DNA from: Metamycoplasma auris 15026
GTDB lineage: Bacteria; Bacillota_I; Bacilli_A; Mycoplasmatales; Metamycoplasmataceae
Assembly (NCBI RefSeq): GCF_000367765.1
Contig: NZ_AORI01000001.1
Coordinates: 1 to 64,000, forward strand
Direction of reading: 5' to 3'
DNA: 64,000 nucleotides
Below the pieces are notes generated by a model. It did no database searches, was not told the DNA's origin, and saw nothing but the letters and a program-made list of their open reading frames with translations. Position numbers and translations under genes: made by a program. Numbering within the stretch: the first letter of the stretch is position 1; the number at the start of each line of letters is the position of its first letter. Of the stretch, positions 54,059-64,000 are shown in pieces.

Positions 54059-54887
54059 ATTTATTGCAAAAAAAGATGATGTTGGACGTATTCTTTATAA
54101 ATACATTCTTATTGTTTGTGACAATGTTCCTAAATCTAGAATTGAAAAAATCTTTCGACAAAAAGATATCAAGGTTAATGGAATTCGAACCAATGATAAA
54201 CAATATAAATTGCAACTAGGCGATGAAATTATTGTTTATGGCCTTTTAGAAATTAAAAAGCCTGAAAAGAAAAATACAGCTAACATTAATTTCAAAGTAA
54301 TCTATGAAGATAAAAATCTTTTAATCATTGATAAAGAAACAAATGTTGCCATGCATTCAGAAGAAAATTGTTTGGATGACCAAGTGCACAAATACCTTAA
54401 TTTCAAAAAAACTTCTTCTTTTGTACCATCTTCCATTGGAAGATTGGACAAAAAAACAAGTGGCCTTGTAGTTTATGCTAAAAATTATCCAACTCTTGTA
54501 ACTTTTGAAGCCGCCCAAAAACATTTTGAAAAAATTTACCAATTTATTTCTGAAAATTTCAATCAAGAAAAACTTGATATCACAGTTCGCCTAGAAAAAG
54601 ATATTAAAAATGAAAAAATGAAAGTAAATCCTGACTTTGGAATTAAAGCTCATACAATCTTTTTTAAAGAAGGAAACCGTAAATTTGCCCAAATTCTGAC
54701 TGGAAAAAAACATCAAATTAGAGCTACACTAGAATATCTCAAAGCCCCTATTTTAGGTGATACTAAATATGGTGGAAAAAAAGCAAAACGTCTATATTTA
54801 CATTCATATTCAATTAAGTTTGCTGCTCTTCCTGAAGAATATGCTGAATATAATGACCAAATTTTTATTTCATATCCAAGATGATAG
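54051..54887 (+). CDS. RluC/RluD-family pseudouridine synthase
   Basis: This 278-aa protein has an S4-like N-terminus (residues ~14-70) and a synthase domain with GRLDKKTSGLVVYA (~131-144), where HRLD is usual; Gly replaces His. GKKHQIRATLEYL is the later KHQIR motif. It modifies 23S rRNA uridines. The last codon before TAG is TGA (Trp), so the correct end is 54887. Confidence 0.9.
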
Positions 54888-54898
54888 GAAAAAGTCTT

Positions 54899-55201
54899 AT
54901 GAAGATTGAAAAAATTAAGAAATTAGCTAATGATTTATTATTAGAACCAGACAATGAAGTAGTACAGCTAACAAGAAAATTGCTTGCTTCAATTGATAAA
55001 TCTTTGCAAGAATTAGAATGAATAGACCTAGAAAACATTAAACCACTTTCTCATATTAATGAAAAAGAAGTTGACTTTGAATGTTTAAGAGATGATGAAA
55101 TAAATCTAGATAGCACAATAAAAAAATCTGACTTACTAGCCAATGCAGCTTCTCATGATGAGAATTTAGTTATTATGAAAAGAGTCGTCAATGAAGAATA
55201 A
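54899..55201 (+). CDS. gatC: Glutamyl-tRNA(Gln) amidotransferase subunit C
   Basis: This 100-aa small subunit of GatCAB begins MKIEKIKKLANDLLLE, with one TGA Trp. It has WIDLENIKPLSH and KRVVNEE, in line with the short GatC family. It stabilises GatA. The stop overlaps gatA by 11 nt. Confidence 0.85.
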
Positions 55202-56516
55202 AAACCTTAATGATGTTATTAACAAATTAACTAATGATAAAAATAATGCAGTTAGCATTGTTTTTAATAATGCAAAACTAAATGACAGAGGAATTTTATC
55301 TAACTATATTTTTACAATCAAAGATAATTATGCTGACACTAATGTTGCATGTAGAGCTTCTAGTTTATTTTTAAAGACTTTTAAACCTCAGTATAAAGCA
55401 ACGGCTCTTAAATTATTAGAAGAAGCAGGAGCCGCTTGTGTTGCTAGAACTAATTTGGACGAATTTGGATTAGCTGGTAGTGGTGAACATTCAGCTTATG
55501 GTTTAATTAAAAATCCTTTAAATGCTCAATATTTAGTAGGTGGCTCATCTTCAGGAGCAGCTGCGACATTTTATGATGAAATTGATTTTGCAATTGGCTC
55601 AGATACAGGAGATTCAGTGCGAAAACCTGCATCTAACATTGGCCAAATTGGTTTCAAGCCAAGTTATGGAGCAATTAGTCGTTATGGGCTTTTTGCATAT
55701 GCTTCCTCACTAGATACAGTAGCTTACTTCACACATAACATAGAAGATCTCATTAAAATCTCTTCGGTTCTATACAAAAAAGATTTTCAAAATGATATGA
55801 CTTCTATTGATTTAAGCTTTGATTATAATGATATTAAAGAAATTAAGCCTCTAAAAATTGCTTATTTAAATTGCTTTGACAAACTAAGTCCTTCTGTTGC
55901 TTTTGCTTATAAAAAGCTTCTAGAAAAACTAAAAAAAGAAAACATTGAATTAATTGAAATTCAAGAAGATGAAAAACTTTTTAATTCAATTGATGTAATA
56001 TACAAAGTCATTTCATTTTCTGAAGCTTCATCTAATTTAGCTAATTTAACTGGCGTTGCTTTTGGGCAAAGAAAAGAAGAAAAAGATTGAACTGAAACAT
56101 TTATTAAAACAAGATCCCAATATCTTGGCAAAATGGTTAAAAGTCGTTTAATTCTAGGCTCTTTATTTTTAGAAAATGAAAATCAAATTAAATATTTTGT
56201 TAAGGCTAAAAAATTAAGAAGAATTTTAGCTAATCATTTTACAAAAATTCATGAAAGCGCTGATTTATTTATATATCCAGCTTCCAATGACATTGCTTCC
56301 AAAATTAATGAAACTCCAAAATATCAATCATATTTAGATTTCATATTAACTTATGCAAATTTAGTTGGTAATCCTTCTTTAACAATGAAATTAGGAGTCG
56401 ATAAAGAAACTTTGATGCCTTTTAATATCGCAGTTGATACAAAAATTTATCATGATACAAAGTTATTTGCGCACAGCTTATATCTAAAAAAAATCTTGGA
56501 GGATATTAATGAATAG
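55191..56516 (+). CDS. gatA: Glutamyl-tRNA(Gln) amidotransferase subunit A
   Basis: This 441-aa amidase-signature enzyme has the Ser-cis-Ser-Lys triad: Lys in IKDNYAD (~44), GGSSSGAAA (~118-126) and DSVRKPASN (~142-150). It liberates ammonia from glutamine and delivers it to GatB. TGA at 56088-56090 is Trp. It overlaps gatC and gatB. Confidence 0.96.
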
Positions 56517-57933
56517 TAGTTGAGAATTAGTTATTGGAATTGAGATTCATATTGAACTCAATACCAAAACCAAAATGTTTTCAAGTCAACCCAATTTGTA
56601 TTCAGATATTCCAAATATTTATGTATCACCAATTGATTTAGCTTATCCAGGAACACTTCCTTCTTTAAACAAAGAAGCAATAATTAAAGGCATTAAACTC
56701 GCTAAAGGCTTAAAGATGAAAATCGATAATTTAGTGCGTTTTGATAGAAAAAACTACTTTTATCCTGATTTAACTAAAGGCTACCAAATCACCCAACAAT
56801 TTAACCCAATTGGAAAAAATGGCATTATAAAAGCTAAGGTTGATGATATCTGAAAAGATATTTCAATTGAAAGAATTCATCTAGAAGAAGACACAGCTAA
56901 ATCTCTTCACCAAGATAAATATACTCTTCTAAACTACAATCGATCTGGCGTCCCATTAATTGAAATTGTTTCAAATCCAGTAATGCATTCAGCTAAAGAA
57001 GCAACTGCATATGTTGAAGCAATTAGACAAATGGCTCTTGCACTTAATATCTCGGATGCTAAAATGAATGAAGGTAGTTTAAGAGTTGATGTCAATATTT
57101 CAGTAAGAAAAAAGAATTCAGACGATTTAAACACAAGAGTTGAAATTAAAAACTTAAATTCTATTTCAAACATTGAAAAAGCAATTGAATATGAAGCTAA
57201 TTACCAAATAAATTGTTATGAAAATAACATTTCTTTTGAACAATGCACAAAAAGATATGATGAAAACAAAAATATCACAGTTATAATGCGTTCAAAATCA
57301 AGTGCAATTGATTACAAATACTTTCCAGACCCAAACATTCCTTATATTAGATTATCAAATGAATTAATTGATTCAATTAAAATTGAAGAGCTACCTTATG
57401 AAAAAGAACAAAGATATCTAAAAAATGGATTAAATAACGTACAAATTTCGCAACTTATTAATAACACAAGTTACGCTAATTTTTTAGATTCTTTGAATAC
57501 TAACGACTTTAAAAAAACAACAAATATCTTTTTTTCAGAAATTGTTTCATATATCAACCAAAATCCAACCCAAAATGATTTAATTCTATCTAATTCAAAA
57601 GAAATTTCAAAACTAATTCAATTTGCCATTGATGAAAAAATTTCGAAAAATAATATTAAATTAATTCTTGAAGAAATTAAAAATTACAATGATTTCGATA
57701 TTGAAAGCATCATTAAAAATAACAATCTTTTTATAGAAAAAAAGGCCATTGATTTGCATGCAATTATCAAAGAAATTTTTAAAGAAAATCTTTCTTTGGA
57801 AGCTGAATTTAAAAACAATTTCAATCGTGCATCCAAATTTTTAAGTGGTCAAGTAATGAAAAAAACTAGTGGTAAAGCAGACATAATTGAACTAAATAAA
57901 TTAATTAAGGCGTTGAATGAAGAAAAAAAATAA
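56509..57933 (+). CDS. gatB: Glutamyl-tRNA(Gln) amidotransferase subunit B
   Basis: This 474-aa protein has the GatB/PET112 core: IGIEIHIELNTKTKMFSS at the N-terminus, NYNRSGVPLIEIVS, and SLRVDVNISV. A C-terminal Asn/tail-type helical domain ends GKADIIELNKLI. It transamidates Glu-tRNAGln to Gln-tRNAGln, implying that no glutaminyl-tRNA synthetase is needed. GGAGGATATTA precedes the ATG. Confidence 0.96.
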
Positions 57934-59017
57934 AGACTTTTTACAAACTGGATGAGATAAAGACCCAGAGCAACAAGAAGAAAATAAGGAAAATCTTGAG
58001 CAATCTAAAGACTTTTCAACAAGACATATTGTTAAAAATAAAAAAAGACAAAACTTGCTTGAAAAAATTATTAAATGAATTATCTATGGCATTCTCTTCA
58101 TTGCCATGCCTAACTCATTAAGAAGCTCAAAAACAAAAGCAAAAGAAATTGTTAATAATACATATCTTAAAATAAATTCATACGAATTTGCATTTGTACC
58201 TGCGGGATTTGCAATGTATATGTTTTTATCCTTTATTCCAACAATTGGTTTAGTTATTGGAATAGTAGGATTAATTAGTCCAAATTATGAAAATGTAATT
58301 AAGGTTATTATTCTTGGCCAATTAATTCCTGGGATTGAGCATGTTATTCCAACATTCTCAGGAATTCTAAAGACAGCTGGTGGAGCTGTTACATTCATCA
58401 TTTTGGCACTTTCAATCTTATGATTATCATCAAAAGGATATAGTAAATTTGTTCTTTCAATCGATGCATTATATGGACACAAAACAACAAATGCTCTTTG
58501 AAAAACAAGAATTAAGGGCTTTTTAACAAGTATCATTATTACAATTTCATTGACCATTTTTCTATTAACTTACTCGGCTTTTTTAACTTTTATTTTAGAT
58601 AGAGTTTTTGATCAAGGTAAACTTTTACCAAATATTAAACTAAAAGATTTACGTTGGGATTTTCAAATTATTTTTTGATTACCTATTATTTTATTTTTAC
58701 CTCTATTAATTTATTGCTCACTGCTTATTTCTTTCAAATTTTCACCAAATTTCAAAGTTAAATTATCCCAAATTAACCCTGGCGCTTTAATTGCTGCAAT
58801 CCCAACTTCTTTATATATTTTAATTTTTGGATCCTTAGCGTCACTTATTAATTATCATAAATTTGGCATTGTTGCATCTTTTATGTACATTATTTTACTT
58901 CTTAGCATTATGTCATATTTTATTTATACAGGTGTGATTGTTAATGCTAGTTTTTACAAAACCTTTATCAAACTTCCTACCATTGAAAAAAGTAGATGGT
59001 TAAACAAAAGAAGCTAA
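57917..59017 (+). CDS. YihY/BrkB-family membrane protein
   Basis: This 366-aa protein has a ~50-residue charged N-terminus and about six hydrophobic helices. The family feature PAGFAMYMFLSFIPTIGLVI resembles the YihY/BrkB helix. The ATG at 57917 overlaps the gatB stop by 17 nt. TGAs are Trp. No enzymatic role is known; the name ribonuclease BN is a mis-annotation of this family. Confidence 0.8.
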
Positions 59018-59163: not shown

Positions 59164-60171
59164 ATGAAAGAGAAATTGCCTGGTGGTATTAATCACTATC
59201 TAAAGTGAGCAAGATCACAAACAAATATATCTTTTAGAAAATGGAATCCGAAAAAGATTGCATTTGTTGGTGTATTAATTGCTATTTCTGTTGTTATGTT
59301 TCTAATTTCAGTTAGAATTCTTCCAATTAGTGCACTTCCTGCATTTAAATTTAGTTTTATTGGACTACCAATAAAAATTACAGGTTTTGTTTTTGGACCT
59401 GTTGTTGGAATTATAACTGGGGTATTAGCAGATCTTATTTCTTTTGCATTAGTTCCCACTTATTATAGTGTTTTATATACGCTAGCTGTTGCCACAGCTG
59501 GTTTTGTTCCTGGTTTAATTGGCTATTATTTTTTTAATCTAAACGAACTTTTTTTCTCAAGAAAATATCGTATTTACAAATACAAACAAACAATTGAATT
59601 CTTTAAGATTCAATATCTCGAAGCACAAGCAAGAAGAAATTCCGAAGACTTGCAATATTTTTCAGAAAAAATAGCTTTCTATGAAGTAAAAGTTATTATT
59701 CTTGAAACAAAACAAAAACCTGTCGCTATGATTAACTTTTCTTTCATTTCAGCAATTAGTTTTTTAGTGTTACAAATTATTATTATTCTAGCTATTTTTT
59801 CAAAGCTAGATAATTCAATCTTTGAACATAACCGTTTTATTAAGAATCGTTTATTTTATGTAATTCTTACTACTTCTGGTTTTATTGGAATGATTGTTTT
59901 TGTCGTTCTATACCGTTTATTCTTAAGAAAAAACTACCAAACTTTTATTGAAGTTATGGCAATCATTACATTTTGTGCTATTTTAGAATTAGTAAATACA
60001 CTTCTATTAGCATGAGCTGATACTGAAACTCTTAAGACAGACTTCTGGGTGAATTTTACAGGTCAAACGCTAACTAGTCCAATTAAGATATTCTTTAACC
60101 TAGCTATCATTTTAGCAACATACAAAGTAGTTGCCTCACTTATAAGATCGAAAGAAGGCAATAGATTTTAA
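59164..60171 (+). CDS. ECF transporter substrate-binding (S) component
   Basis: This 335-aa membrane protein shows the S-component pattern: IAISVVMFLISVRILP, GLPIKITGFVFGPVVG and GVLADLISFALVPT (helices 1-3). A ~75-residue hydrophilic segment (~138-200) lies within, then further helices. ECF S components capture vitamins or other small molecules and need an EcfA/A'/T module. Which substrate is not readable; a folate-like group is one candidate. TGAs are Trp. The stop overlaps the next start (TAATG). Confidence 0.8.
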
Positions 60172-62549
60172 TGGATAAAAAAATTACAGGTTTAAGAGTT
60201 ACAGGACTTAAGAAAAAAGAAAAAAACTGAATAAATAATAAGATTAATTTTGACTTGCTCATTAGTAATCTTAATTTTTCTTTATCTAAGAATAATATTT
60301 TAGGTATTATTTCGCAAGATAAAGAAACTAAGGATGCAATTTTTAAACTGCTAACTAATAATAAAATTAAATGAAAAGGCTACCAAGGTTTTATTGAATT
60401 CAAGCAAGGAAACAATAAAAATTATTCATTAACATATAAAGATGATGAATACCAAAAAAATCTTGCTTTTGGTTTTGATGATGAAAATCTGTTTCAAAAT
60501 AAAACAAAAGATACTGTTTTTTCTTATTTAGAACGTTATATTATAGAAAATAACATCATCAATTTTATGACTTCTGTTTTTAAAAAAGGATGACAAGACG
60601 TATACCAAGATTCTAAGTACCATTTGCATTTAAAATATTCAGAAATAAATTTAAATTTACAAAAAGAAATTGAACCAATCATTGAAGAAATAAAAAAAAT
60701 CATTGAGTTTAATTCAAATGATAAATTAAATGACTTTAGTTATAATGACAAAATTATCTTAATGCAAAATATTTATAATCTTATTAAAAATGTAATTAAA
60801 ATAATTCAACATTATGAACAAGAATTTTTAAGTTATATTGAAGATCGGATTAATGACTATGAAAAAGGTTCGTCCCTTTTAAAATTTAAAGAATATAACT
60901 ATGCTAGATTAGAATATGAAAAACTAATTAACCAAAATAACCAAAATAAAAAAATCACAATTGACTCACCCCTTTTAAGCAAACTAAAAAATCATCTAAA
61001 AATCCTAAAACTAAAAAAGAATACAAAGCTTGAAATTAAAAGATACTTTGATAAATTACAACATGAATTTATTCTAGAAATTGCTTTTAACAAAGCAAAT
61101 CTAAACAAAAAAAATAAAAGCAATGCTTTTTCTTATTACTATCCAAGATACTATGTCAATAAGACTTTTTATGCGGCTTGCAAAAAACATCTTCCCAAAA
61201 TTCGATTATTTGAAAAGTCCTTAATTATTGATTTTATTAAAGAAATTTATGACTTAAGAGACTATATTGTTAATGAAATTAGTGCTCTTGGCATTCTCAG
61301 TTCCCAAAAACAACTAAAAAACCAAGCTAAATACATTACCAAATCAATTGTTGAAAAAAACATTAAGATGTATGATGAAAGATTTAAGAATCTTATTGAA
61401 GAAGAAAGTTCAAATATCATTAAAAAAATTAATAATGAAATAGCAGAACTAAAAAATGAAAAAAAATACAATCATATTAATATTTCCAAACTCAAAGAGT
61501 ATCAATATGATCTAGAAGAAAAAAAATACGAATACTACTGAAAAATTGATACAGAAGGAAGAAAAATCAAAGCTGAAGCTTCTAAAATATATGCTAATTC
61601 CCTTCCTTTTTATAACAAAAATAAAAACAATCTTTTAGTAATTAAACAAAATCTTAATTTTTTACTTGATGAAATTTTTAAAAAACACGCAGAAGAAATT
61701 GAAAATATCAATATAAAATCTTTATTTTCAAGTCCTCTTTCAAGAATCTTTTATGATTTACAATCAATGAAACTCCTTCTATTTGATTCATTTCATAAGT
61801 TTCATAATTACGAAAAAATCATTAATGATATAAAAAACAACAAAGATGCTTTCTTCCAGTTAATGCTGAAATTAAATATCTATAAAGTTATTCAAAATTC
61901 TGGTATGTCTTTGGATAAATTAGTAATGAATTTATCATATCTAACCTTAGATGAAAAAATAGCTTTAGAAATTAATAAGATTTTTCTAAACAACCCCGAT
62001 CTTATTATTGTAGGTGATTTAATTTCTAAATTAACTAATAAAATTCAACTTGAAACACTCAACAAATTAAATCAATATATTTTAAGTAAAGAAGGTCTTG
62101 GCATCTATCTTTTAGACAAAATTGAAGTTGCCTCAAGAATTACTACTGATTTAAATATTATTTATAACTCCATTACAATTGAACAAGGAAAAACAAATAA
62201 AATCATTGATAATCCAATCAATCCTTATCTAAAAACAATTTTAAATAAAGAAACTGCTGATACAAAAGAAGAATTGGATAACTTTCTTGAAAAAAGCAAT
62301 AATGTTGAAGGTATTTTTAAATACGAAATTGAACCTGATCATTATGTTTGATGTAATTGAAGTCAGTTAACTAGATGAGTAGAAAGTAATAATATAAAAA
62401 ATAAAAAAATAAGAAACCTTCTTTTATTAGATGAAAATCAAAACAAAAGCCCAGCTGAAATAAATGACAAATATGAATTTGAAGAAGAAACAATAATCAA
62501 TCTCGAAAAATCCAATAAAAAAACGCAAGAGCAAAAAGAAGAAAAAGAT
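60171..62549 (+). CDS. Degenerate ABC ATPase-like protein with helical insertion, in frame with valS
   Basis: About 793 codons from ATG 60171 (overlapping the S-component stop, TAATG) to the valS ATG. Residues ~1-80 look like an ABC N-lobe: a GIISQDKETKD loop stands where Walker A would be. Residues ~580-690 resemble the ABC signature-to-H-loop region: LSYLTLDEK for LSGGQ, DLIIVGDLISKL for Walker B, and LLDKI for the switch His. All catalytic residues except perhaps one Lys are gone. Between lies a ~450-residue charged coiled-coil. No TAA or TAG separates it from valS. Confidence 0.75.
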
Positions 62550-64000
62550 ATGGATAAAAATTTCGATCATAAACTAGTTGAAAAAAATAGAAATAAAAAA
62601 TGAGTTGAAATGCAAGCTTTTTCAACTCATGATTTAAGTAAACCTCCATTTACTATTATTCTTCCTCCTCCAAATGTTACCGGACAACTTCATATTGGTC
62701 ATGCTCTAGATACTTATATTGCCGATACAATAATAAGATACAAACGCAATAAAGGTTTTGATGTTAAATGAGTAGCAGGTAAAGACCACGCTGGTATAGC
62801 TACACAAGTTGTTGTTGAAAAAAAATTAGCTAAAGTTGGACTAGATAAATACAAACTTGGAAGAGAAAAATTTATTGAAGAAATTTGAAACTGAAAAACT
62901 GAATACTCCAATAGAATTAGTGAACAATGAGCTAAATTAGGACTTGCATTGGATTATCCAAGCGAACGTTTTACTTTAGATAAAGAAGCTAACGAAGCAG
63001 TACTAAAAGTCTTTGTTTCAATGTACAATGATGGCTTAATTTATCGTGATACAAAAGCGATTTCATGGGATCCAAAACTTAAAACAGCCTTATCAAGTAT
63101 TGAAGTTATTCCAACCGAAGTAAAACAAAAACTTTATTATGTTAAATATCCAATTAAGAATAAAAATGAAGATCTTGTTGTTGCTACAACAAGATTAGAA
63201 ACTATGTTTTCTGACGTTGCAATTGCCATTAATCCAAATGATTCAAGATTCAAACTTCTAATGAATGAAACAATCATTCATCCGCTAACAAAAAAAGAAA
63301 TTCCAATTATTGCTTCTCAGTTAATTGATCCTTCTTTTGGTACTGGAATTATGAAAGTTTCAGCGCATGCTATTGATGATATTGAAATTATTAAGCAAAA
63401 TAATTTGGAAATCATTGAATGTATTGATGACCAAGGTAAAATGAATGAAATCGCCAAAAAATACCAAGGATTGGATCGCTTTGAAGCTAGAAACTTAATT
63501 GCAACAGAACTAATCCAAAATAATTTGATAGAAAAAATAGAAGACATAGTTTCAAATGTTGGCTATGGTGAAAGAAGTAACGAACCAATTGAAATTCTTG
63601 TCAAACCACAATGATTTGTCAAAATGAAATCATTGTCAGAAAAAATTCTTAAAAATCTAGAATCATCAGCAGCTGTAAAATTCATTCCTGAAAGATTTGA
63701 AGATGTTTTAATCAAATGAATGGAAAATGTTCATGATTGAACAATCAGTAGACAACTTTGGTGAGGACACAGAATTCCAGCTTGATATAAGGATAATGAA
63801 GTAGTTGTACAAATTGAAAGTCCTGGTGAAGAATGAATACAAGATAGCGATGTTCTTGATACTTGATTTAGTTCAGCTCTAGCTCCTTTTGTTTTCTTAG
63901 GATGACCACAATCTAATGAACAAATCAAAAGATATTTCCCAACTAGTTTATTAGTTACAGGTTATGACATTATTTTCTTTTGAGTTTCAAGAATGTATTT
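62550..64000 (+). CDS. valS: Valine-tRNA ligase, 3' end outside window
   Basis: From ATG 62550 the protein begins [18 protein letters not shown], a normal ValRS start. The class I HIGH motif appears as HIGHALD, with [15 protein letters not shown] around residues 39-53. [27 protein letters not shown] (editing domain) and DVLDTWFSSALAP follow. It runs past 64000. TGA is Trp at several positions. The SD is weak (GAAGAAAAAGAT). The ORF upstream is open in the same frame. Confidence 0.95.

Follow-up and report, generated by a model that had tools for sequence, protein, structure and literature searches.

We analysed the first 64,000 nucleotides (forward strand) of contig NZ_AORI01000001.1 of Metamycoplasma auris 15026, hereafter the window. 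An ABC ATPase-like protein and valyl-tRNA synthetase (ValRS) were found to share one continuous reading frame, and the same fused frame was present in 22 of the 24 Metamycoplasma species compared. Judged by its sequence, the ATPase-like half is a maintained pseudo-enzyme that is catalytically dead. As the frame holds the only valS and directly follows the gene for a vitamin-transporter-like membrane protein, the arrangement suggests that a ValRS indispensable for translation bears an additional, conserved part for docking.

The shared reading frame and the internal valS start

In this Metamycoplasma genome, TGA encodes Trp (code 4). Under this code, the frame starting with the ATG at 60171 comprised 1629 aa (60171..64000 in the window, forward strand). 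Its stop was at 65060, 1060 bases past the window end. A sequence-only reading of the window had opened the frame at the same ATG, which held under code 4, and had closed it at 62549. That end was wrong. The frame has no stop there, where it passes the codon just before the conserved valS start, and runs on through valS to 65060. The ATPase-like half has 793 residues and is followed in the same frame by a full-length ValRS of 836 aa (62550..64000, forward strand, ending outside the window). The ValRS half scored 870 bits with TIGR00422, against a cut-off of 612, and its LHIGHA (HIGH) and GRKMSKS (KMSKS) motifs were intact. By profile and motifs, it is a ValRS. When the 24 genomes were searched with TIGR00422, each had one valS over the cut-off, always at this locus (24/24), and a second, free-standing valS was absent from all of them.

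Closed fused frames of 1605-1634 aa were found in seven named species (M. spumans, M. anseris, M. orale, M. hyosynoviae, M. gypis, M. zalophi and M. enhydrae). Across the 22 fused species, which share kinship and do not represent 22 independent events, the 15 codons leading up to the valS ATG held no in-frame stop, compared with 27.5 expected from shuffles. The other two frames of the same stretch held 36 and 26 stops. A missed stop or a sequencing error at the junction was rejected because the same open frame recurs in 22 species.

The two unfused exceptions were M. struthionis, by a frameshift, and the species coded G013, by a stop/start overlap (TAATG). In M. struthionis (L061, 11008-13383) the upstream frame ends by the shift, and in the ValRS frame the linker has stayed free of stops. 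This split reflects either a recent event or a sequencing error. As two species carry unfused genes, the fusion is not indispensable. On the tree, the fusion was most simply ancestral in the genus and was followed by two later splits; the deep branches of this tree are weakly supported, and several independent fusions are the alternative history.

The Met of valS was kept within the open frame in 22/22 fused species. The valS ATG was preceded by an SD match of 5 nt or more in 16 of the 22, compared with 8 of 376 other in-frame ATGs (p = 3e-18), and a match of at least 4 nt was found in 21. The lone exception was the window species, whose SD was the weakest of all, with no match of at least 4 nt. 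Its start region (62525..62552, forward strand) has an only purine-rich leader before the ATG at 62550-62552. Since the ABC-like part can be made only in fused form (barring cleavage) and the internal ATG can give free ValRS, two forms are expected. Two products were thus predicted from the sequence, an ABC-like–ValRS fusion and a free ValRS.

Origin and constraint of the ATPase-like half

In the AF2 model of the ATPase-like half (mean pLDDT 77), a helical stretch of about 450 residues interrupts a nucleotide-binding domain (NBD). The N-terminal half of this NBD-like domain covers residues 1-125 (60171..60545; hhalign, AF2 and alignment), and its Walker A site reads GIISQDKETKDA. The all-helical insertion (60549..61898) lies at the same position as in mycoplasma OppF, according to AF2 and the hhalign comparison with OppF. 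The C-terminal half of the domain follows with an OppF-type tail (NPINP; H-x-VWC..W) at 61899..62405, as placed by NCBIfam, hhalign, Foldseek and alignment; the signature, Walker B (LIIVG) and H-loop within it were each degenerate. The linker to ValRS (62406..62549) is probably disordered, the final 40 residues (754-793) having low confidence (pLDDT < 50), and it is flexible and variable between species. All of these segments are on the forward strand. No membrane segment was predicted in the ABC-like part. The top PDB matches of the model in Foldseek were DppF, DppD and OppF (prob 1.00, E 3e-6 to 2e-5, about 130-195 columns). By sequence profile and by the model with Foldseek, this half is a member of the ABC fold. 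The ABC-type architecture with a long helical middle that the sequence-only reading had described was therefore seen with hhalign, AF2 and Foldseek alike, and the predicted fold was not an unrelated one.

That reading had also assigned the protein to the EcfA type, and here it did not hold. A profile of the 24 orthologues matched the OppF of its own genome with E = 5e-19 over 717 columns (hhalign), compared with 2e-7 for OppD, 1e-5 for EcfA2 and 3e-4 for EcfA1, the last two over about 100-115 columns. An EcfA origin was rejected because OppF is far closer in this comparison. As OppF also shares the long helical insertion, the ABC-like half is, on sequence evidence, a full-length mycoplasma OppF paralogue including this insertion. 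The intact OppF (C12, 1785-4325 of L074; 846 aa) has a roughly 500-residue helical insertion between the Q-loop and the signature, and the dead paralogue has this long insertion too. The two proteins are collinear over 717 columns, with the insertion and the C-terminal tail included. However, OppF has intact GESGSGKTT, FSGGQ, ADEP and AHD motifs and lies in an opp operon, whereas the window protein has lost all of these motifs. With EcfA1 and EcfA2 (345 and 269 aa), it shares the ABC superfamily and an adjoining S component; unlike it, they have no comparably long insertion.

In NCBIfam, the window protein matched NF045976 (MAG1360 family OppF-related protein) with 61.3 bits, below the curated cut-off of 200 bits, residues 29-783 aligning with profile positions 39-775. 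Local matches to OppF/DppF were found around Walker B to the H-loop. A Pfam search of the ABC-like part gave nothing useful. M. sturni (662 bits) and G024 (366 bits) have S-adjacent proteins that exceed the NF045976 cut-off, and the window gene is tied to the MAG1360 family by this synteny. The ABC-like half is, by gene order and profile, the syntenic counterpart of that family. Like the Mycoplasmopsis members, it matches the profile over its full length, is of similar size and is placed behind an ECF S-type gene; it differs in its sub-cut-off score and in its fusion to ValRS, which is not part of the 777-position model.

The loss of catalysis was uniform. In the alignment, the Walker A consensus, the SGGQ signature, the catalytic Glu and the switch His were present in 0/24 orthologues. 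The Walker B Asp was kept in one, with Gly instead in the other 23, and the Walker A Lys column held Lys in only 11/24. The combination expected of an active ABC ATPase (Walker A, SGGQ, Walker B Asp-Glu and switch His) was thus found in none of the 24 orthologues. The sequence-only reading had noted substitutions in Walker A, signature, Walker B and switch His, and these were borne out in 24/24 orthologues, with intact catalytic residues in none.

The ABC-like part evolved fast, with 20-55% identity to the copy in the window. Its dN/dS was 0.10-0.27 in five species pairs, with dS near saturation in three. These values were higher than those of the S-type protein (0.01-0.08) or ValRS (0.05-0.15), and all were well below 1. 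Purifying selection thus acts on the ABC-like part, which is a conserved pseudo-ATPase rather than a decaying remnant. Of the earlier description "decayed ABC ATPase", the catalytic loss stands, but the word "decayed" does not fit a conserved protein under such selection.

The S-type neighbour and gene order

Directly upstream lies a gene for an ECF S component-like membrane protein (59164..60171, forward strand; NCBIfam, profile and Foldseek). The protein is FolT/RibU-like, with 335 aa and a helical stretch inserted. Its stop overlaps the ATG of the ABC-like frame by 1 nt (TAATG), as also seen in 19 of the 24 species, in agreement with the earlier proposal of a co-translated ECF S neighbour. 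In NCBIfam, the S-type protein scored 610 bits with NF007179, just below the cut-off of 630, and 35 bits with the FolT family TIGR04518, also below cut-off; the match to PF12822 (5e-5) was below cut-off as well. Its profile matched the folate ECF S component 4z7f (FolT) with 7.7e-7 and a riboflavin uptake protein with 6e-4. The Foldseek match to TmRibU (prob 0.98, E 0.11) was weaker than the sequence-profile match. By homology, it is a putative ECF S component. An intact EcfA1-EcfA2-EcfT set, which the sequence-only reading had suggested looking for, was found on contig C11, and intact OppDF is also encoded in the genome.

The S-type gene was present in 134 of the 135 genomes of the family. 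About 110 of the family genomes lie outside the genus, and 40 of these were surveyed for gene neighbourhood. In several other genera, the order S, ABC-like and valS was present with the genes unfused. The association of these genes therefore predates the fusion. In Mycoplasmopsis, the S-type and ABC-like genes are adjacent without valS alongside, which means that the ABC-like part does not depend on ValRS for its role.

Unfused homologues from three other genera carry a tail of the E[ED]xxIIDL type at their extreme C-terminus or close to it. In the fused species, the motif lies about 10-15 residues ahead of ValRS. Its equivalent in the window is the acidic/hydrophobic EEETIINL within the linker (62481-62504, forward strand). 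In sequence, this tail looks like a docking motif.

Several loci departed from the common arrangement. In G027 (L102, 1148-3325, reverse-complemented), two frames of 437 and 266 aa lie between S and valS and hold the N- and C-terminal halves of the ABC-like protein separately. M. iners (L069, 6958-9900) has the S-type gene, with no ABC-like gene and no open frame of that size behind it. Directly upstream of S in the window, 54881-59017 holds genes that by eye resemble gatC, gatA and gatB (tRNA amidotransferase) and a gene for a multi-span membrane protein. A gatB-like gene and membrane genes are also found ahead of S in most of the named Metamycoplasma loci.

Possible roles of the fusion

It is evenly poised between right and wrong, in our judgement, that an OppF-derived pseudo-ATPase, long linked with an S-type protein, now forms the N-terminal half of the sole ValRS and docks part of the ValRS pool. 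The pseudo-NBD with its helical insertion would serve as a protein-protein docking module rather than a motor, and would bring a fraction of the ValRS pool to a partner. The likeliest partner would be the S-type membrane protein, whose translation immediately precedes that of the fusion, or else a different ABC or ECF component. The flexible linker would join the dead NBD to ValRS, with an adaptor as the simplest working mode, and initiation at the internal ATG would supply free ValRS beside the fused form. The sequence-only reading had already suggested a scaffold or adaptor role for the dead NBD, which such a scheme would retain. It had missed that the ABC-like protein continues into ValRS and forms the N-terminal half of one fused product, and the possible target of the adaptor changes with it. 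Several observations count against the docking scheme: the weak internal SD of the window species, the unfused genes of two species, the fast evolution of the ABC-like part and its lack of a predicted membrane segment, and the Mycoplasmopsis arrangement in which it occurs without valS alongside. More tentatively, and with somewhat more doubt than belief, we consider that the only ValRS is made in two forms from one frame and that the pseudo-ABC form docks to an ECF-type membrane protein, which would connect a transporter physically with tRNA charging.

The chief competing reading is a fusion that is tolerated and functionally neutral, which is possible but a little more doubtful still. The ABC-like part would keep its old job related to the S component and tolerate a C-terminal ValRS, while nearly all working ValRS would come from the internal start or from proteolysis of the linker. 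The conserved internal SD and ATG, the flexible and variable linker, the tolerated fission in two species and the unfused orthologues in other genera are all consistent with a fusion that has no role. However, the linker is A/T-rich and evolves fast, and a single nonsense mutation anywhere in it would be enough to separate the genes; yet the 22 related species have no in-frame stop in it.

Asymmetric NBD pairs in which one site is degenerate are well known among ABC transporters. It is thus conceivable, though unlikely, that the dead domain is the regulatory member of such an asymmetric pair, with an intact NBD (EcfA or OppD/OppF) as its partner, and couples a transporter to the valine or tRNA status sensed by ValRS. 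The genome has intact OppDF and EcfA1A2T, and the protein is an OppF paralogue. Against this, its gene sits with an S component and not with opp genes, and, with both the Walker A/B side and the signature side destroyed, the dead domain would have nothing to contribute to a composite ATP site from either side. A decaying pseudogene or an assembly or frameshift artefact might explain why every catalytic motif is lost and why evolution is fast, but is extremely improbable. The identical continuous frame in 22 species genomes, the low dN/dS and a newly conserved residue (the Gly that replaced the Walker B Asp) all argue against it, and the pseudogene was rejected by dN/dS and conservation.

The best precedent for anchoring by docking is CAAD-ValRS of cyanobacteria, in which an extra domain localises ValRS; in Anabaena, the enzyme is membrane-located and has ATP synthase as an interaction partner (PMC4893482). 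CAAD combines a putative coiled coil with two transmembrane helices (PMC4893482). In the window, by contrast, what is joined to ValRS is a dead, soluble ABC ATPase next to a separate membrane protein; the anchoring domains are unrelated. Aminoacyl-tRNA synthetases with added domains, and membrane anchoring of ValRS in cyanobacteria, were thus already known. Here the fusion replaces the only valS copy in a near-minimal genome. The open-licence literature yielded no record of an aminoacyl-tRNA synthetase fused to a dead ABC ATPase, and none in which a fusion of this kind is the only copy in a near-minimal genome, which is weak evidence of absence. A search of the open-licence papers for MAG1360 and mycoplasma ValRS fusions returned nothing relevant. 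If docking is true, uptake would be physically and directly linked with translation in near-minimal cells. The MAG1360 family gains a testable context, as an OppF-derived pseudo-ATPase that stays beside an ECF S protein in several genera.
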